From a bacterium (GTDB lineage: Bacteria > UBP18 > UBA7526): 34,665 nucleotides of DNA. Below, in pieces: positions 21,101 through 30,629 of this stretch; position 1 is the stretch's first letter, and every line of letters begins with the position of its first letter. Where the stretch lies: assembly GCA_030616365.1 (NCBI GenBank), contig JAUWXM010000003.1, positions 1 through 34,665 on the forward strand, read 5' to 3'. The notes below the pieces were generated by a model. It was given only the letters and a program-made list of their open reading frames with translations, made no database searches and was not told the DNA's origin. The position numbers were made by a program, and so were the translations under genes.

Positions 21101-21198
21101 TAATTTGAGGAATTTCAATGATGGATGCTACTTGCTTGGCTCATTTCTGAGCGGAGCGAAGAAACAAGGTTCTTGGGCGAAAGTGAAAGGCTTTCTTA

Positions 21199-21345
21199 TT
21201 TTCGAACGAAGTGAGAAAAGAGACAACTTGCTTGGCTCATTTTCGAACGAAGTGAGAAAAGAGACAACTTGCTTGGCTCATTTTCGAACGAAGTGAGAAA
21301 AGAGACAACTTGCTTGGCTCATTTTCGAACAGGGTGAGAAAACAA
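21199..21345. repeat. 41-bp tandem repeat, three full copies plus a partial fourth
   Basis: TTTTCGAACGAAGTGAGAAAAGAGACAACTTGCTTGGCTCA begins at 21199, 21240 and 21281; a diverged copy begins at 21322; a related sequence sits upstream at 21128-21166. Confidence 0.9.
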
Positions 21346-21367: not shown

Positions 21368-21495
21368 TTTGGAGAATTGGGCGGCCAGCTTAGGAATGAT
21401 CGCTGATTAACCGCCGGGCTTTGAGAATAAGGCAGCGACATGCCTCTTGACACTATAGCCTAAGGTAGAATCGTAGATGATTCCCCAGGAGGAGA
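21368..21495. pseudogene. ~128-bp duplicated fragment of the 3' end and downstream flank of the minor-pilin gene 26102..26491
   Basis: 21368-21495 aligns to 26063-26190 with about three mismatches by eye; both encode SWGIIYDSTLGYSVKRHVAALFSKPGG. Confidence 0.88.
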
Positions 21496-25827: not shown

Positions 25828-26101
25828 TCTTCAGCCTCCTTAAAATTTTGTTTTGATTGACATTTTTAAATATATCACAAGATTGTTTATTTATCGAGTG
25901 TTTTTTTACCTTTTAATACAATTCCTGCCAGTTGGTGATGGTGATTTTGGTTTCTCCTTTTTATTTGATTCATCAAGAGAAGAAAAAGTATCTTTTTGTA
26001 CATCTTGAGTGATGTTATTTCACCCGGAGTTTTTTAATTTTTTCATTCCTCTTATTTTACTCTTTGGAGAATTGGGCGGCCAACTTAGGAATGATCGCTG
26101 A

Positions 26102-26491
26102 TTAACCGCCGGGCTTTGAGAATAAGGCAGCGACATGCCTCTTGACACTATAGCCTAAGGTAGAATCGTAGATGATCCCCCAGGAAGAGACATATTTGGA
26201 GTAATCTCCTCCCCCAGTATAAATGAGAGAAAAGGAACCTTCTCCAAGTTCTCGAATGGTGTAATGGTCATCAAATGTTATCCAATCATTATCTGTATCG
26301 CCCAGGGAGTATTGGGCGTATTGGAGGCCGGCATCGGCAAGATAGAGGGCGACAGTGGATTGTTTCTCCCGGACGGAGGTATTGGTCTCAGAGGCCATCA
26401 TCATGGTGAAGACCATTCCCAGCATCATGATGACAATCAGGATGAATAGAGCCATCACTAAAGCGACGCCACTCTCTTTTTTCTGGGGCAT
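26102..26491 (-). CDS. Minor pilin / GspK-PilX-like protein
   Basis: MPQKKESGVALVMALFILIVIMMLGMVFTMMMASETNTSVREKQSTVALYLADAGLQYAQYSL. Confidence 0.8.
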   Translation of the reverse strand: MPQKKESGVALVMALFILIVIMMLGMVFTMMMASETNTSVREKQSTVALYLADAGLQYAQYSLGDTDNDWITFDDHYTIRELGEGSFSLIYTGGGDYSKYVSSWGIIYDSTLGYSVKRHVAALFSKPGG

Positions 26492-26538: not shown

Positions 26539-27153
26539 TTATTGAGTATAGGGATAGTTTCTGGGCTGAACGGTGGACCTCAGGTGTACTACATCCTCCT
26601 CTCCGGTAGCCCCTCTTTTTAGTTTAGCTTCTATTTCAATCATCCAGATGCTGTTGTATGAGCCTGCTTCAGGAGTGAATGAATTGATAGTGTTATCAGC
26701 CCACTTAGAATAATAATAAAGAGAAAAACTATCCATATATTTGGCCATTTCTTTTCCTCCTACACCTTCCTCATTACGATATAGGATGTGTTGAGCAGAA
26801 TCATAATAATAAGAGACATCCTTCAGGGTAGTAGTGTCTAAGAGATAGGCGCTGAAATTTATACTGGTAGCATCTGCAGCTTCCATCCAAGTGGCTTCTC
26901 TGGCTTCCCTGGTTAGTCTATCCATGGCCACTCGGGCCTGGGCGATGATGTCTGTTCTTTCCTTCCCTCCTCGCCAGACATCTAAACCACCCTTGAGAAT
27001 GCCATATAAAGCCATAGCGATCATACCAAGAATGGCTAAGGCAACCAGAATTTCAATGAGGGTAAGCCCCGTTGGAGATCCTTGCCAGAGGCAAGGCATC
27101 CGTCCCCTTCGGGGTCGGATTATCTCCAACGGGGTAAATCCTCTCTTCTTCAT
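26539..27153 (-). CDS. Type II secretion / type IV pilus minor pseudopilin, GspJ-like, with interrupted leader
   Basis: MKKRGFT-(24 aa)-LIEILVALAILGMIAMALYGILKGG...ARVAMDRLTREAREA. Confidence 0.85.
   Translation of the reverse strand: MKKRGFTPLEIIRPRRGRMPCLWQGSPTGLTLIEILVALAILGMIAMALYGILKGGLDVWRGGKERTDIIAQARVAMDRLTREAREATWMEAADATSINFSAYLLDTTTLKDVSYYYDSAQHILYRNEEGVGGKEMAKYMDSFSLYYYSKWADNTINSFTPEAGSYNSIWMIEIEAKLKRGATGEEDVVHLRSTVQPRNYPYTQ
27061..27132. mobile_element. 72-bp palindromic element inserted in frame in the pseudopilin leader, with GGTAA target-site-like duplication
   Basis: Outer stem CCCCGTTGGAGAT (27067-27079) / ATCTCCAACGGGG (27122-27134). Inner hairpins CCTTGCC-AGA-GGCAAGG (27080-27096) and ATCCG-T-CCCC-TTC-GGGG-T-CGGAT (27098-27120). 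GGTAA at 27061 and 27133. Confidence 0.75.
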
Positions 27154-27170: not shown

Positions 27171-27668
27171 TTAGTAGACTGATAATGTTTTTAGGCCGTA
27201 TAGAGAGACGGTAGCGATATCAGAATGCTCAACATAGACAATAATCCTTTTACAAGGGGTATTGGCCCCTGTTCCCATAGGGGTCTGGAGATCATAGGCA
27301 CTGACAAAGGCCACAGAGACGCTGCGTGTGAAGTCGGCATAGGCAGTCCCTACGCTGCTGCCCATAACATCTAGAGGAGGTATTTTATTCTTCCAATCAG
27401 AGTAATCATCGACATCGTCATATTCAGATCTATAGTTTTCTTCATGCCCAAAAGTGGCACTTTGTGTTTGAGGATCCCAGAACTCCTTGCCCATTATCTC
27501 GTCCATCAGGTCCTGGGCTAAGTTTGTGGCCTGGGTTCTCACCTGGTTGGCGATAACCCCATCCATACCCACAGTGAACATGGTGATGAGCATGGCGATC
27601 CCCATTGATAGAATGACTAAAGCAATCAAAATCTCGATTAAAGTAAAACCTTTCCTCTTTTTTAACAT
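27171..27668 (-). CDS. Minor pseudopilin, GspI/PilV-like
   Basis: MLKKRKGFTLIEILIALVILSMGIAMLITMFTVGMDGVIANQVRTQATNLAQDLMDEIMGKEF. Confidence 0.85.
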   Translation of the reverse strand: MLKKRKGFTLIEILIALVILSMGIAMLITMFTVGMDGVIANQVRTQATNLAQDLMDEIMGKEFWDPQTQSATFGHEENYRSEYDDVDDYSDWKNKIPPLDVMGSSVGTAYADFTRSVSVAFVSAYDLQTPMGTGANTPCKRIIVYVEHSDIATVSLYGLKTLSVY

Positions 27669-27675
27669 ATCTTTC

Positions 27676-28167
27676 CTACCAAATACTCACTGCCCCAGTC
27701 TCTGCGGCTATTCCAATATACAATTGATTTGAGCCCTTTTGAATCAGGACATTTCTGCTGCTTGTTAAGTCACCTCCGCTATCTGAGGGTTTGCCCAGAG
27801 CATTAAAAGTCACATAATGTTCACCAAAGGTGGTGTCCTCTATGGTAACGCCCTTCAATTGCTCATCATCATCAAAGTCGATATTTAGATTCGTGCCCCG
27901 TTTGAGAGGATTCTCTACAACTGTTCCCGTTTCCTCATTGTAAACGCTATAACGGTTCTCTGATGGAATAAAGTCTACAGTATGATCCTCATGCTGGGCG
28001 ATGGCGCGGCTCTGGGCTAATCTTATGTGATTGGCAATCTGTTCGGCGGCCGCGTCCACCTTGAAGCTGTCCGCCTGGCGGAAGAGGCGAGGAGCAAAGA
28101 CCGCAGCTAAGATGCCGATCAATAAGATAACAATGACCAGTTCAATGAAAGTAAAGCCTCTTGACAT
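27676..28167 (-). CDS. Minor pseudopilin, GspH/FimT-like
   Basis: MSRGFTFIELVIVILLIGILAAVFAPRLFRQ...AAAEQIANHIRLAQSRAIAQHEDHTV. Confidence 0.85.
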   Translation of the reverse strand: MSRGFTFIELVIVILLIGILAAVFAPRLFRQADSFKVDAAAEQIANHIRLAQSRAIAQHEDHTVDFIPSENRYSVYNEETGTVVENPLKRGTNLNIDFDDDEQLKGVTIEDTTFGEHYVTFNALGKPSDSGGDLTSSRNVLIQKGSNQLYIGIAAETGAVSIW

Positions 28168-28193: not shown

Positions 28194-30629
28194 TTAGGGG
28201 TTAGCCATTCTGGTCAGGGCTTCTTTTGCCGGAAGAAAATTGGGTCGCATCTTTAAGAGATATTTATATTCTGCTTTTGCTTCTTTTATTCTGCCTCCCC
28301 TTTCATAAAGACTAGCCAGTTGGAAGTGGGCCAGGGTATAATCGAACTTCAGGAGGGCCCCCTCATAACCACAGGATATCTTAGGAAAGAGATTCCGTTG
28401 CTCAATCTCAATAATTTTCTCATACTCTGAGAGTGCTCTGTTATATAAGCCTTTCTTAGAATAGAGGAGGGCAAGGTTATAGTGGGGTTCTACATAGTTC
28501 GGCTCATAATAGACCGCTCTTTCAAACTTCTCAATGGCTTTATCATCCCAACCCATTTTAGCATAGATGACCCCTAAAGCGCAAGAAGAAAATGGGAAGG
28601 TGGGATCAATCCTTAGAGATTCTTTGAACTGAGTGATGGATTTATTCATCAGGAGCCTATTTCTTCCCTGAGAGGCAAGCCAGTAGATAACCCCTAAATC
28701 TCTTCTATAATGACTATTCTCAGGGTTCAAAAGGACCATCTCCTCATATTCCCCAGTGGCCTTCTCAAGCCAGAATTCTCTTTTTTCTTTAGCGATGAGA
28801 GCAAGGTGGCGATATAAGTCTCCCAGGTTCTTGTGATAGCGGTCGTTGGTGGGCTCTAACTTCTGAGCGATGAGATAGGAGGATATCGCTTGATCGAAGG
28901 TCTTCTTCTTCTGATAATCGATTCCTTTTTTATAATGCCTATGGGCTATCAAGGGAAGGGTTGCCTGGGCAACGAGGAACAGGGTGAGGCAGATGATGAA
29001 ACTGCCCCGGATGAGGGGGCTGTGGTAGAGATGAGAGAATAGAGAGGCTGCGGGATGTGGGATGTGGGATGTGGGATGGGTTAGGTCCGTTGACCCGTTG
29101 GCCCGTTGGCCCGTTAGCCGGTTGACCCGTTGACCCGTTGGCCTGTCTTTCGTCTTTGCTTGGAGTATGAGGAGGGCGGCGAAGTAGATGAAGAGTATGT
29201 CTGTGGCTGGGGGGCGAAGGACGAAGTCGACAAAACTGTGAAGGAGAAGGCCGCTAAGGCCGGATAGGAGGCCGATGGTCAGATAGGGCTGAAAGTTGGC
29301 CGGTTGGCCGGTTGGCCGGTTTGCCGGTTGGTCAATTTGCCCGGTCCCAACATCTGTTGGGGTATTCGCCGGTTCTTTTAACTGGGTAACTGGGTAACGG
29401 GGTAACTGGGTAACTTTTGTTAGGGTTCGGAGGCCGGTGCGGAAGATGAGGGTTATTATCCATAAGAAGATGACCAGGCTGGGGAGACCAGTCTCGGCTG
29501 CTATCTGAAGATATTCATTATGGGCAAAACGAGCAGAGAGGCCATAGCGGGCAATGGTTTCATTGGTTAAGGGTATAGGAATCTTATGCCCCTTAAATAT
29601 TATACCATAGGTTCCCATCCCGGTGCCAAGGAAGGGATAGTCTCTGATGATTCTTAGTGTCCTCCCCCAGATCTGAAGTCTGTCAATGATGAATTTATTG
29701 GCCGGGGTTCTCTGAAAGGTGAACCCTCGCTCCTCTTTGAGGGGCGGGGTAAAGAAGCGGGTTGAGATGGGTTCCCCCAGGGAGACGTCGCTCGGTTCCT
29801 GGACAGTGACTTGGGCAGTAGAGTAGGGTTTGAGCTCTGTCAAAAATTGGGTGGTCTTCTTCAATGGTTGGGGCTTCAGAATTATCTGGATAGTAACAAG
29901 GGAGGCAGTAATGACGAGAAGTATTCCCAATAGAGAGAAGAGGCGTCTTTTCCTTTCTAAAATTCTCTTTCTTGCCAGGAGGATGAAGATGACTACGGAA
30001 CCCACAAAGGCCAGGTATCCTCCCCGGGAATGGGTGGCGAGTAGAGAGATAAAGGCTAAGGATGCGGTGATGAAGGCGAGGCGGGAGAGCCACTTTGAGG
30101 AAGACCAGAGGGCAAGGGCAAAGGCTAAGGGGATGATGAGGAGGAGATAGCCGGCCAGGGAATTGGGATTGGGAGGAAAAGTGGAAGCAATTTCAGTCAA
30201 ATTTGGCCAGTGGGAGAAGTATTGATAGACTCCGTAACCGGCTACGATGCTTCCCACACCAAGAATAGCAGAAATGGCAACCGGGAAATGATACTTTTTC
30301 CTAAGATTATTGACCAAGAGAAAATAGAGAAGAATAAAGGCCGCTACTTTATATAATTCAGAGAGGCTCGCTCCCTTATTTACAGAAAAAATGGTGGAAA
30401 GTAAGGCAAGGAAGAGGAAGAGCACCAGGGGAAGGTTTAAAGGGGTCTTGATGAATTTTACACCCCTCTCCCAGTTCATCCTGAGAAACCAGAGACAGGT
30501 TAGAAATAGGATGAGGATATAGGTAGCGGTAAGGGTCGGGATTTGCTTTGTTGCCCGAATAAGAGGGGTATAGATGAGGATGGCTAAGAGGCCAAGCTCC
30601 GTTATCCTAGCAAAAGTCTTCCTCGCCAT
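28194..30629 (-). CDS. O-antigen ligase/Wzy-like polytopic membrane protein with C-terminal TPR repeats
   Basis: Multiple hydrophobic segments; FLGTGMGTYGIIFKGH...RFAHNEYLQIAAETGLPSLVIFLWII is typical of Wzy_C/O-antigen ligase; TPRs at the C-terminus. Confidence 0.88.
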   Translation of the reverse strand: MARKTFARITELGLLAILIYTPLIRATKQIPTLTATYILILFLTCLWFLRMNWERGVKFIKTPLNLPLVLFLFLALLSTIFSVNKGASLSELYKVAAFILLYFLLVNNLRKKYHFPVAISAILGVGSIVAGYGVYQYFSHWPNLTEIASTFPPNPNSLAGYLLLIIPLAFALALWSSSKWLSRLAFITASLAFISLLATHSRGGYLAFVGSVVIFILLARKRILERKRRLFSLLGILLVITASLVTIQIILKPQPLKKTTQFLTELKPYSTAQVTVQEPSDVSLGEPISTRFFTPPLKEERGFTFQRTPANKFIIDRLQIWGRTLRIIRDYPFLGTGMGTYGIIFKGHKIPIPLTNETIARYGLSARFAHNEYLQIAAETGLPSLVIFLWIITLIFRTGLRTLTKVTQLPRYPVTQLKEPANTPTDVGTGQIDQPANRPTGQPANFQPYLTIGLLSGLSGLLLHSFVDFVLRPPATDILFIYFAALLILQAKTKDRPTGQRVNRLTGQRANGSTDLTHPTSHIPHPAASLFSHLYHSPLIRGSFIICLTLFLVAQATLPLIAHRHYKKGIDYQKKKTFDQAISSYLIAQKLEPTNDRYHKNLGDLYRHLALIAKEKREFWLEKATGEYEEMVLLNPENSHYRRDLGVIYWLASQGRNRLLMNKSITQFKESLRIDPTFPFSSCALGVIYAKMGWDDKAIEKFERAVYYEPNYVEPHYNLALLYSKKGLYNRALSEYEKIIEIEQRNLFPKISCGYEGALLKFDYTLAHFQLASLYERGGRIKEAKAEYKYLLKMRPNFLPAKEALTRMANP
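29052..29079. repeat. Heptanucleotide tandem repeat (GGGATGT)x4 inside 28194..30629
   Basis: GGGATGT GGGATGT GGGATGT GGGATGG. Confidence 0.92.
29087..29142. repeat. Octanucleotide tandem array, seven units (consensus CCGTTGRC), inside 28194..30629
   Basis: CCGTTGAC CCGTTGGC CCGTTGGC CCGTTAGC CGGTTGAC CCGTTGAC CCGTTGGC. Confidence 0.92.
29295..29334. repeat. Octanucleotide tandem array, five units (consensus GTTGGCCG), inside 28194..30629
   Basis: GTTGGCCG x3, GTTTGCCG, GTTGGTCA. Confidence 0.92.
29380..29415. repeat. Octanucleotide tandem array, 4.5 units (consensus AACTGGGT), inside 28194..30629
   Basis: AACTGGGT AACTGGGT AACGGGGT AACTGGGT AACT. Confidence 0.92.

Follow-up and report, generated by a model that had tools for sequence, protein, structure and literature searches.

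The window (the whole stretch of DNA that was analyzed, 34,665 nt) contains on its minus strand a cluster of pilin-like genes, one of which carries an insert within its leader. The genes of the cluster and the two cleavage motifs of the interrupted leader are as follows.

26539..27153, minus strand: minor pseudopilin (PilW/GspJ-like), 204 aa, with the insert inside its 29-aa leader; from profile matches
27064..27069, minus strand: predicted prepilin peptidase cleavage point G29|L30; from the start of the HMM alignments and the hydrophobic +1 to +20 stretch
27136..27141, minus strand: original G5-F6 motif, now preceding charged residues and probably nonfunctional; from hydropathy
27171..27668, minus strand: PilV-like minor pilin, a neighbor with an ordinary 7-aa leader; from profile matches
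27676..28167, minus strand: GspH/ComGD-like pseudopilin, a neighbor with a 4-aa leader; from profile matches
26102..26491, minus strand: PilX/GspK-like protein, encoded downstream within the cluster; from weak PilX_N and GspK matches

The interrupted pseudopilin matched TIGR02532 (E = 3e-6), PF07963 (above the cut-off), and, weakly, GspJ, and its alignments to Pfam N_methyl and NCBIfam IV_pilin_GFxxxE both start at residue 29. A type IV pilin-like class III signal peptide consists of a hydrophilic leader ending in Gly, about 21 hydrophobic residues, and Glu5; Gly(-1) is critical for prepilin peptidase, and leaders are usually hydrophilic, with lengths of 6-26 aa (PMC4471445). The sequence G29|LTLIE has the hydrophilic leader ending in Gly, the hydrophobic stretch, and Glu5, with a leader that at 29 aa is slightly longer than this descriptive range. 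A previous reading of the sequence alone (the sequence-only reading) had noted two cleavage motifs, and both RG|FTPLE and TG|LTLIE do possess Gly(-1) and Glu(+5), but the hydrophobic stretch follows the second only: the Kyte-Doolittle means over +1 to +20 are -0.42 and 2.57, respectively. These sequence features make it very unlikely that the upstream motif works as a cleavage site, and we infer cleavage at G29 with removal of the leader. The final 3' segment of the PilX-like gene also occurs a second time in the window, upstream of a tandem array, as a 128-nt duplication (21368-21495 and 26063-26190, 98% identical). Positions 21198-21342, 29087-29140, and 29295-29331 hold an array of 41-nt tandem units and tandem repeats of 8 nt, the 8-nt repeats lying within the coding sequence of an O-antigen-ligase/TPR protein (28194-30629).

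The pseudopilin ORF translates as MKKRGFTPLEIIRPRRGRMPCLWQGSPTGLTLIEILVALAILG, and removal of 72 nt leaves MKKRGFTLIEILVALAILG, confirming the earlier proposal that excision restores a normal leader. The insertion comprises 24 codons with no stop, as had been described, but the element proper accounts for only 68 nt and the remainder is one 4-nt target copy. In the direction of the gene (27153..26539) the order is ATGAAGAAGAGAGGATTTA, then CCCCGTTGGAGATAATCCGACCCCGAAGGGGACGGATGCCTTGCCTCTGGCAAGGATCTCCAACGGGG (the 68-nt element part), then CTTACCCTCATTGAAATT, and the insertion is divided as follows.

27067..27134, minus strand: palindromic mobile element, 68 nt, CCCCGTTGGAGAT...ATCTCCAACGGGG; from a covariance-model match, the fold, and copies elsewhere
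27122..27134, minus strand: 5' arm of the outer 13-bp stem, with terminus CCCC; from the fold and outer-stem covariation in 16 copies
27067..27079, minus strand: 3' arm of the outer stem; from the fold and the leader register
27067-27069, minus strand: terminal GGG of the 3' arm, which encodes Gly(-1) in the rebuilt cleavage site
27098..27120, minus strand: inner hairpin 1, ATCCGACCCCGAAGGGGACGGAT; from the fold and the alignment of copies
27080..27096, minus strand: inner hairpin 2, CCTTGCCTCTGGCAAGG, the part that varies most among copies in sequence and length
27135..27138, minus strand: upstream target copy, TTTA; from the YNNR 4-nt duplications
27063..27066, minus strand: downstream target copy, CTTA, which is TTTA with one substitution; from the YNNR 4-nt duplications

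As the sequence-only reading had it, a 13-bp outer stem encloses two hairpins, here of 9 bp (with one internal mismatch) and 7 bp. The DNA has a minimum free energy of -31.1 kcal/mol (z = -8.4; 0 of 200 shuffled sequences were equally stable), and the corresponding RNA values are -48.4 and z = -7.3. The 13-nt arm motif occurs twice in the window, at the two arms, against 0.00 occurrences expected by chance, and an Rfam search with the element matched no family. The 5-bp GGTAA duplication that had been proposed was not upheld: the flanks on the plus strand are TAAG (27063-27066) and TAAA (27135-27138), which agree at three of four bases, and one of the two GG pairs belongs to the GGGG end of the element itself. 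At the same place in two other pilin genes (G000:C45:4817 and G003:C27:2034) the target is TTTA, versus CTTA at the window element.

The BLASTN check that had been suggested for this insert revealed many dispersed copies in its own and related genomes, with a second full copy in the same MAG (C20; 85% identity, E = 9.4e-17), partial copies besides, copies in each of the five further MAGs from its GTDB family, and none in 35 other genomes. When one genome per species (84,980) was scanned for a 24-nt core of the element, only the KR13_S3.mb.88, CSMAG_2709, HyVt-354, and UBP18_UBA7526 MAGs matched; the core was absent from viral contigs, and a phage-borne copy was rejected on that ground. After both strands were merged, 74 distinct places in six related MAGs of candidate phylum UBP18, all of them fragmented, were used for the analyses below, of which the weak ones may be related palindromes instead of full members. 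The window element scored 92.3 bits (E = 7.6e-21) against a covariance model (R1) built from 16 aligned copies, which are part of the copies that it recovers. In this 16-copy alignment 97.6% of the pair cells were paired, compared with 37-55% in slid controls, and double-sided changes numbered 46 versus 12.1 after shuffling; compensatory changes have preserved the stems. Counts of the 13-nt arm CCCCGTTRGARRT are 167 versus 5 for the reversed pattern, the termini of the family are fixed (CCCCGTTRGA...TCYAACGGGG), and typical copies are 62-80 nt long and form a three-way junction. Elements may also lie within elements (99 nt inside 243 nt in G004:C123); the rpoN insert (G004:C93) can likewise be read as nested elements, and the one in moaA (G004:C175) has a CCCCGCACC palindrome within it. 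Element-type inverted repeats with CCCCGTTAGA or CCCCGCACC arms also enclose tRNA genes for Val (L024:209-317 and L021:1840-1950), Lys (L041:1200-1304), and Met (L259:977-1083), and both mobile tRNA cassettes and processing stems are possible interpretations. At L245:2604, L251:2486, and L253:2472, isolated CTTGCCCCGTTAGAAAT arms precede TGTGRTA-type sequences and resemble -35/-10 promoters; those in L245 and L251 are situated upstream of large ORFs.

Duplications at other copies had been anticipated, and they are present at a length of 4 nt rather than 5. Of the 74 places, 32 have perfect 4-nt flanking duplications (2000 shuffles gave 4.7 on average and at most 13), exact duplications of 3 and 5 nt are rare (two places and one place, respectively), and all 32 perfect cases have the form YNNR. 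The murA gene provides a filled and an empty site at the base level: G000 reads CCCAGGTAAC[62 nt]TAAAGAGG, a 62-nt element with its target duplication (TAAC/TAAA), compared to CCCAGGTAAAGAGG in G005, and the same codon is uninterrupted in five relatives. The family is therefore mobile. Alignments of the filled gene's product to PDB homologues of MurA break off after residue 146 and resume at residue 171, and the filled gene is under purifying selection (dN 0.035-0.067, dS 0.41-0.97). An AlphaFold prediction of insert-bearing MurA based on six sequences had a mean pLDDT of 34.5 and was uninformative. At the protein level, a SufC-like ATPase has an insert in G004 and none in G001-G003. The murA gene of G001 (L267:622-1977) has another insert of about 22 aa, at a different position and with inverted repeats in its DNA, and other coding repeat families probably exist.

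Copies within ORFs of at least 150 aa have a length of 2 mod 3 in 34 of 34 cases, a class picked for being open and thus biased toward 3n inserts, and copies without an ORF of at least 90 aa do so in 16 of 27. Coding copies keep the frame because a length of 3n+2 plus the 4-nt duplication is a multiple of three. Two reading phases are in use, giving the peptides xPVRS...TSNGV and xPLEV...LLTG, and the third is blocked by a TAG in the common arm CCCCGTTAG. The host genes and products include RodA/FtsW, YjeF, MoaA, RpoN, a pseudouridine synthase (RluD-like), an M24 peptidase, and Memo-AMMECR1. This is a repeated element with a 4-nt YNNR duplication, conserved stems, and frame-keeping coding copies.

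We conclude, with a probability of roughly 0.85, that the window insert belongs to a MITE-like family of nonautonomous palindromic transposable elements restricted to this lineage, which are tolerated in genes, and that its leader site was self-rebuilt. The sequence-only reading had likewise suggested a tolerated, in-frame insertion of a nonautonomous palindromic element, and the copies, the duplications, the filled and empty sites, and the 34/34 frame-keeping support it; neither of the outcomes named there as refuting it was observed. Movement would depend on a DNA-cutting transposase acting in trans, and genic copies would survive where the frame is kept, no stop arises (two of three frames being usable), and the site is tolerant. 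DDE_Tnp_1 was absent from all six MAGs, rve was detected in only two (G003 and G004), and a search for an autonomous parent with matching ends, in which arms were paired over up to 4 kb (20 regions) in these incomplete MAGs, returned nothing convincing; nor did ORFs near unpaired arms reveal a convincing parent element. The transposase may be missed in the fragmented MAGs.

Prepilin leaders are a recurrent location of these elements. In three pilin genes (G000:C21, G000:C45:4817, and G003:C27:2034) the 13-nt arm is present without mismatch and stops precisely at the +1 codon, and in a fourth (G003:C7:4515) it lies in the same register with two mismatches; about 0.0007 exact in-register arms are expected (P ~5e-11 by a simple Poisson calculation that ignores relatedness among the pilins). 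The exact arm TCTCCAACGGGG followed by TTTA at the +1 codon yields LSPTG|FTLME in G000:C45:4817, where leaders of 7 aa are seen in three probable orthologues, and LSPTG|FSLLE in G003:C27:2034. A second element family, CCCCGCACC...GGTGCGGGG, is flanked by TTCA at both ends where it interrupts the G000:C45:272 leader (GAG|FTLIE); its 48 + 4 nt are not a multiple of three, the difference being offset by two extra leader bases, and three probable orthologues have short leaders of 6 aa. The prepilin codons GGN-TTY-ACN contain the YNNR target TTYA, and insertion would generate (N)CG GGG|TTY-ACN, that is, Gly(-1)|Phe(+1)-Thr(+2), with Gly supplied by the GGG of the element and Phe-Thr by the duplicated target. 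Because the element ends in GGGG and TTYA is duplicated, the prepilin peptidase motif would be rebuilt automatically before an unchanged hydrophobic helix. The element-encoded peptide would then fall within the leader and be cut off with it, so that selection against the peptide is probably weak. The suggestion that the insert was selected for, or tolerated by, keeping the processing site is retained as regards toleration with the site kept, whereas selection for keeping it is not required since the element end and target duplication rebuild the site upon insertion. For CCCCG...CGGGG palindromes as a superfamily, we regard it as an even call that prepilin genes offer a self-restoring site at which unrelated families land repeatedly and from which the host peptidase removes their peptides. 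Many prepilin leaders in the pilin clusters of G000-G003 (L226, L227, L228, L229, L230, L232, and L234) contain short tandem repeats, (CCGATTCC)n or GGCTTG-rich, and these leaders may exceed 30 aa; in general, prepilin leaders seem to tolerate repeat DNA. A literature search for UBP18 repeats or prepilin-leader insertions found nothing relevant.

Several pilins carry arms in exact register, and two element families occur at the same codons, which could also mean that the mobilizing enzyme prefers prepilin genes (e.g., GGN-TTYACC), making the leaders true hotspots that are targeted rather than tolerated. We consider this unlikely, as TTTA or TTCA make up only 8 of the 32 duplications, the majority of copies are elsewhere, and survival bias in a discarded leader would give the same picture.

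Two orthologues of the window pseudopilin were found. The G003 leader, MKRRGFTPSPTG|ITLVE, has 21 extra nt resembling the 3' arm of the element (a remnant), and the G005 leader, MKKKGFIQHHFWLKSGAG|LTLIE, has a different 35-nt palindrome, perfect over 15 bp, between the same TTTA and CTTA. Neither is a clean empty site, and the site was disturbed either before these genera split or repeatedly. The 24 aa as a native, single-copy part of the leader are ruled out by the dispersed copies together with the orthologue leaders, which have no such native stretch. The G005 palindrome was considered as a repeated family and rejected, its exact matches being its own two arms and the rest being at about the level of the reversed-pattern control. 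That a different perfect palindrome occurs at this site, once in its genome, is in line with birth of the palindrome in place by template switching or quasi-palindrome correction, with no transposition, as is the divergence of inner hairpin sequences among orthologous rodA inserts. Dispersed copies with common termini and 4-nt duplications, and the base-exact filled and empty murA site, contradict such an origin and make it very improbable; template switching may explain later remodeling of the inner hairpins. In rodA, the inserts of G005 (L138) and G004 (L117) are at the same codon and keep the outer stem and hairpin 1, and hairpin 2 (17 versus 23 nt) has been replaced or remodeled in place.

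Three further explanations are likewise improbable. Skipping or removal of the insert at the RNA or translation level, as an intron-like or hop element that never appears in protein, would accord with the stable RNA fold and with the translational bypassing of palindromic elements reported in yeast mitochondria (PMC6649704), but a skipped insert requires neither a 3n length nor an open frame, yet 3n was seen in 34 of 34 coding copies, and with no Rfam match in addition this is hard to credit. Short hairpin DNA in many copies recalls REP-type elements mobilized by a RAYT/Y1 tyrosine transposase, a proposal that is scarcely tenable as clear 4-nt target duplications are present and Y1_Tnp (PF01797) was absent from all six MAGs with positive controls; RAYT was rejected on this basis. 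Target duplications are not expected from single-strand Y1 transposition. True homology to Rickettsia palindromic elements (RPEs) through horizontal spread would fit the shared behavior of in-frame palindromes in unrelated genes (PMC10969869) but is most improbable, given that the exact 24-nt core is confined to the MAGs of this group among the 84,980 species genomes and is in no viral contig, and that the UBP18 element is shorter (mostly 62-80 nt vs about 150 nt).

RPEs are short, multicopy palindromic repeats situated in frame in unrelated genes and translated as an extra peptide (PMC10969869; PMC6649704), and the UBP18 element is also a palindrome in frame in unrelated protein-coding genes, so that the label "RPE-like" holds for behavior; beyond that it is analogy only, as the core is absent from all named genomes outside the group. 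The UBP18 element differs in its lineage, its three-way junction, its explicit 4-nt YNNR duplication, and its repeated landing at prepilin cleavage sites. Its dispersed copies with terminal inverted repeats and target duplications of a fixed 4-nt length resemble bacterial MITEs, which are likewise short, noncoding, and multicopy, whereas its terminal repeats form the two arms of a single palindrome, its parent element was not found, and it is strongly biased to frame-keeping lengths. The coding inverted repeats of Nematomorpha mitochondria are also palindromes tolerated in coding sequence, but those are perfect, with arms of up to 142 bp, and described as actively maintained (PMC6649704), and the UBP18 element has shared terminal sequences and marks of transposition. 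We group it with coding palindromic MITEs, as a new variety, the resemblance to RPEs apparently being one of behavior.

In-frame coding palindromes have been known as a peculiarity of Rickettsia, and a 2024 review regarded their occurrence beyond Rickettsia as "conceivable" (PMC10969869). The UBP18 element would represent an independent system outside Rickettsia with explicit marks of transposition, including in essential genes such as murA, and these marks (the YNNR duplication and base-exact empty sites) make the mechanism testable. The pilin case would constitute a new route by which coding DNA tolerates a transposon, with the protease site rebuilt and the foreign peptide discarded. If the superfamily reading is true, prepilin leaders would be a post-translational counterpart of a safe-harbor site.
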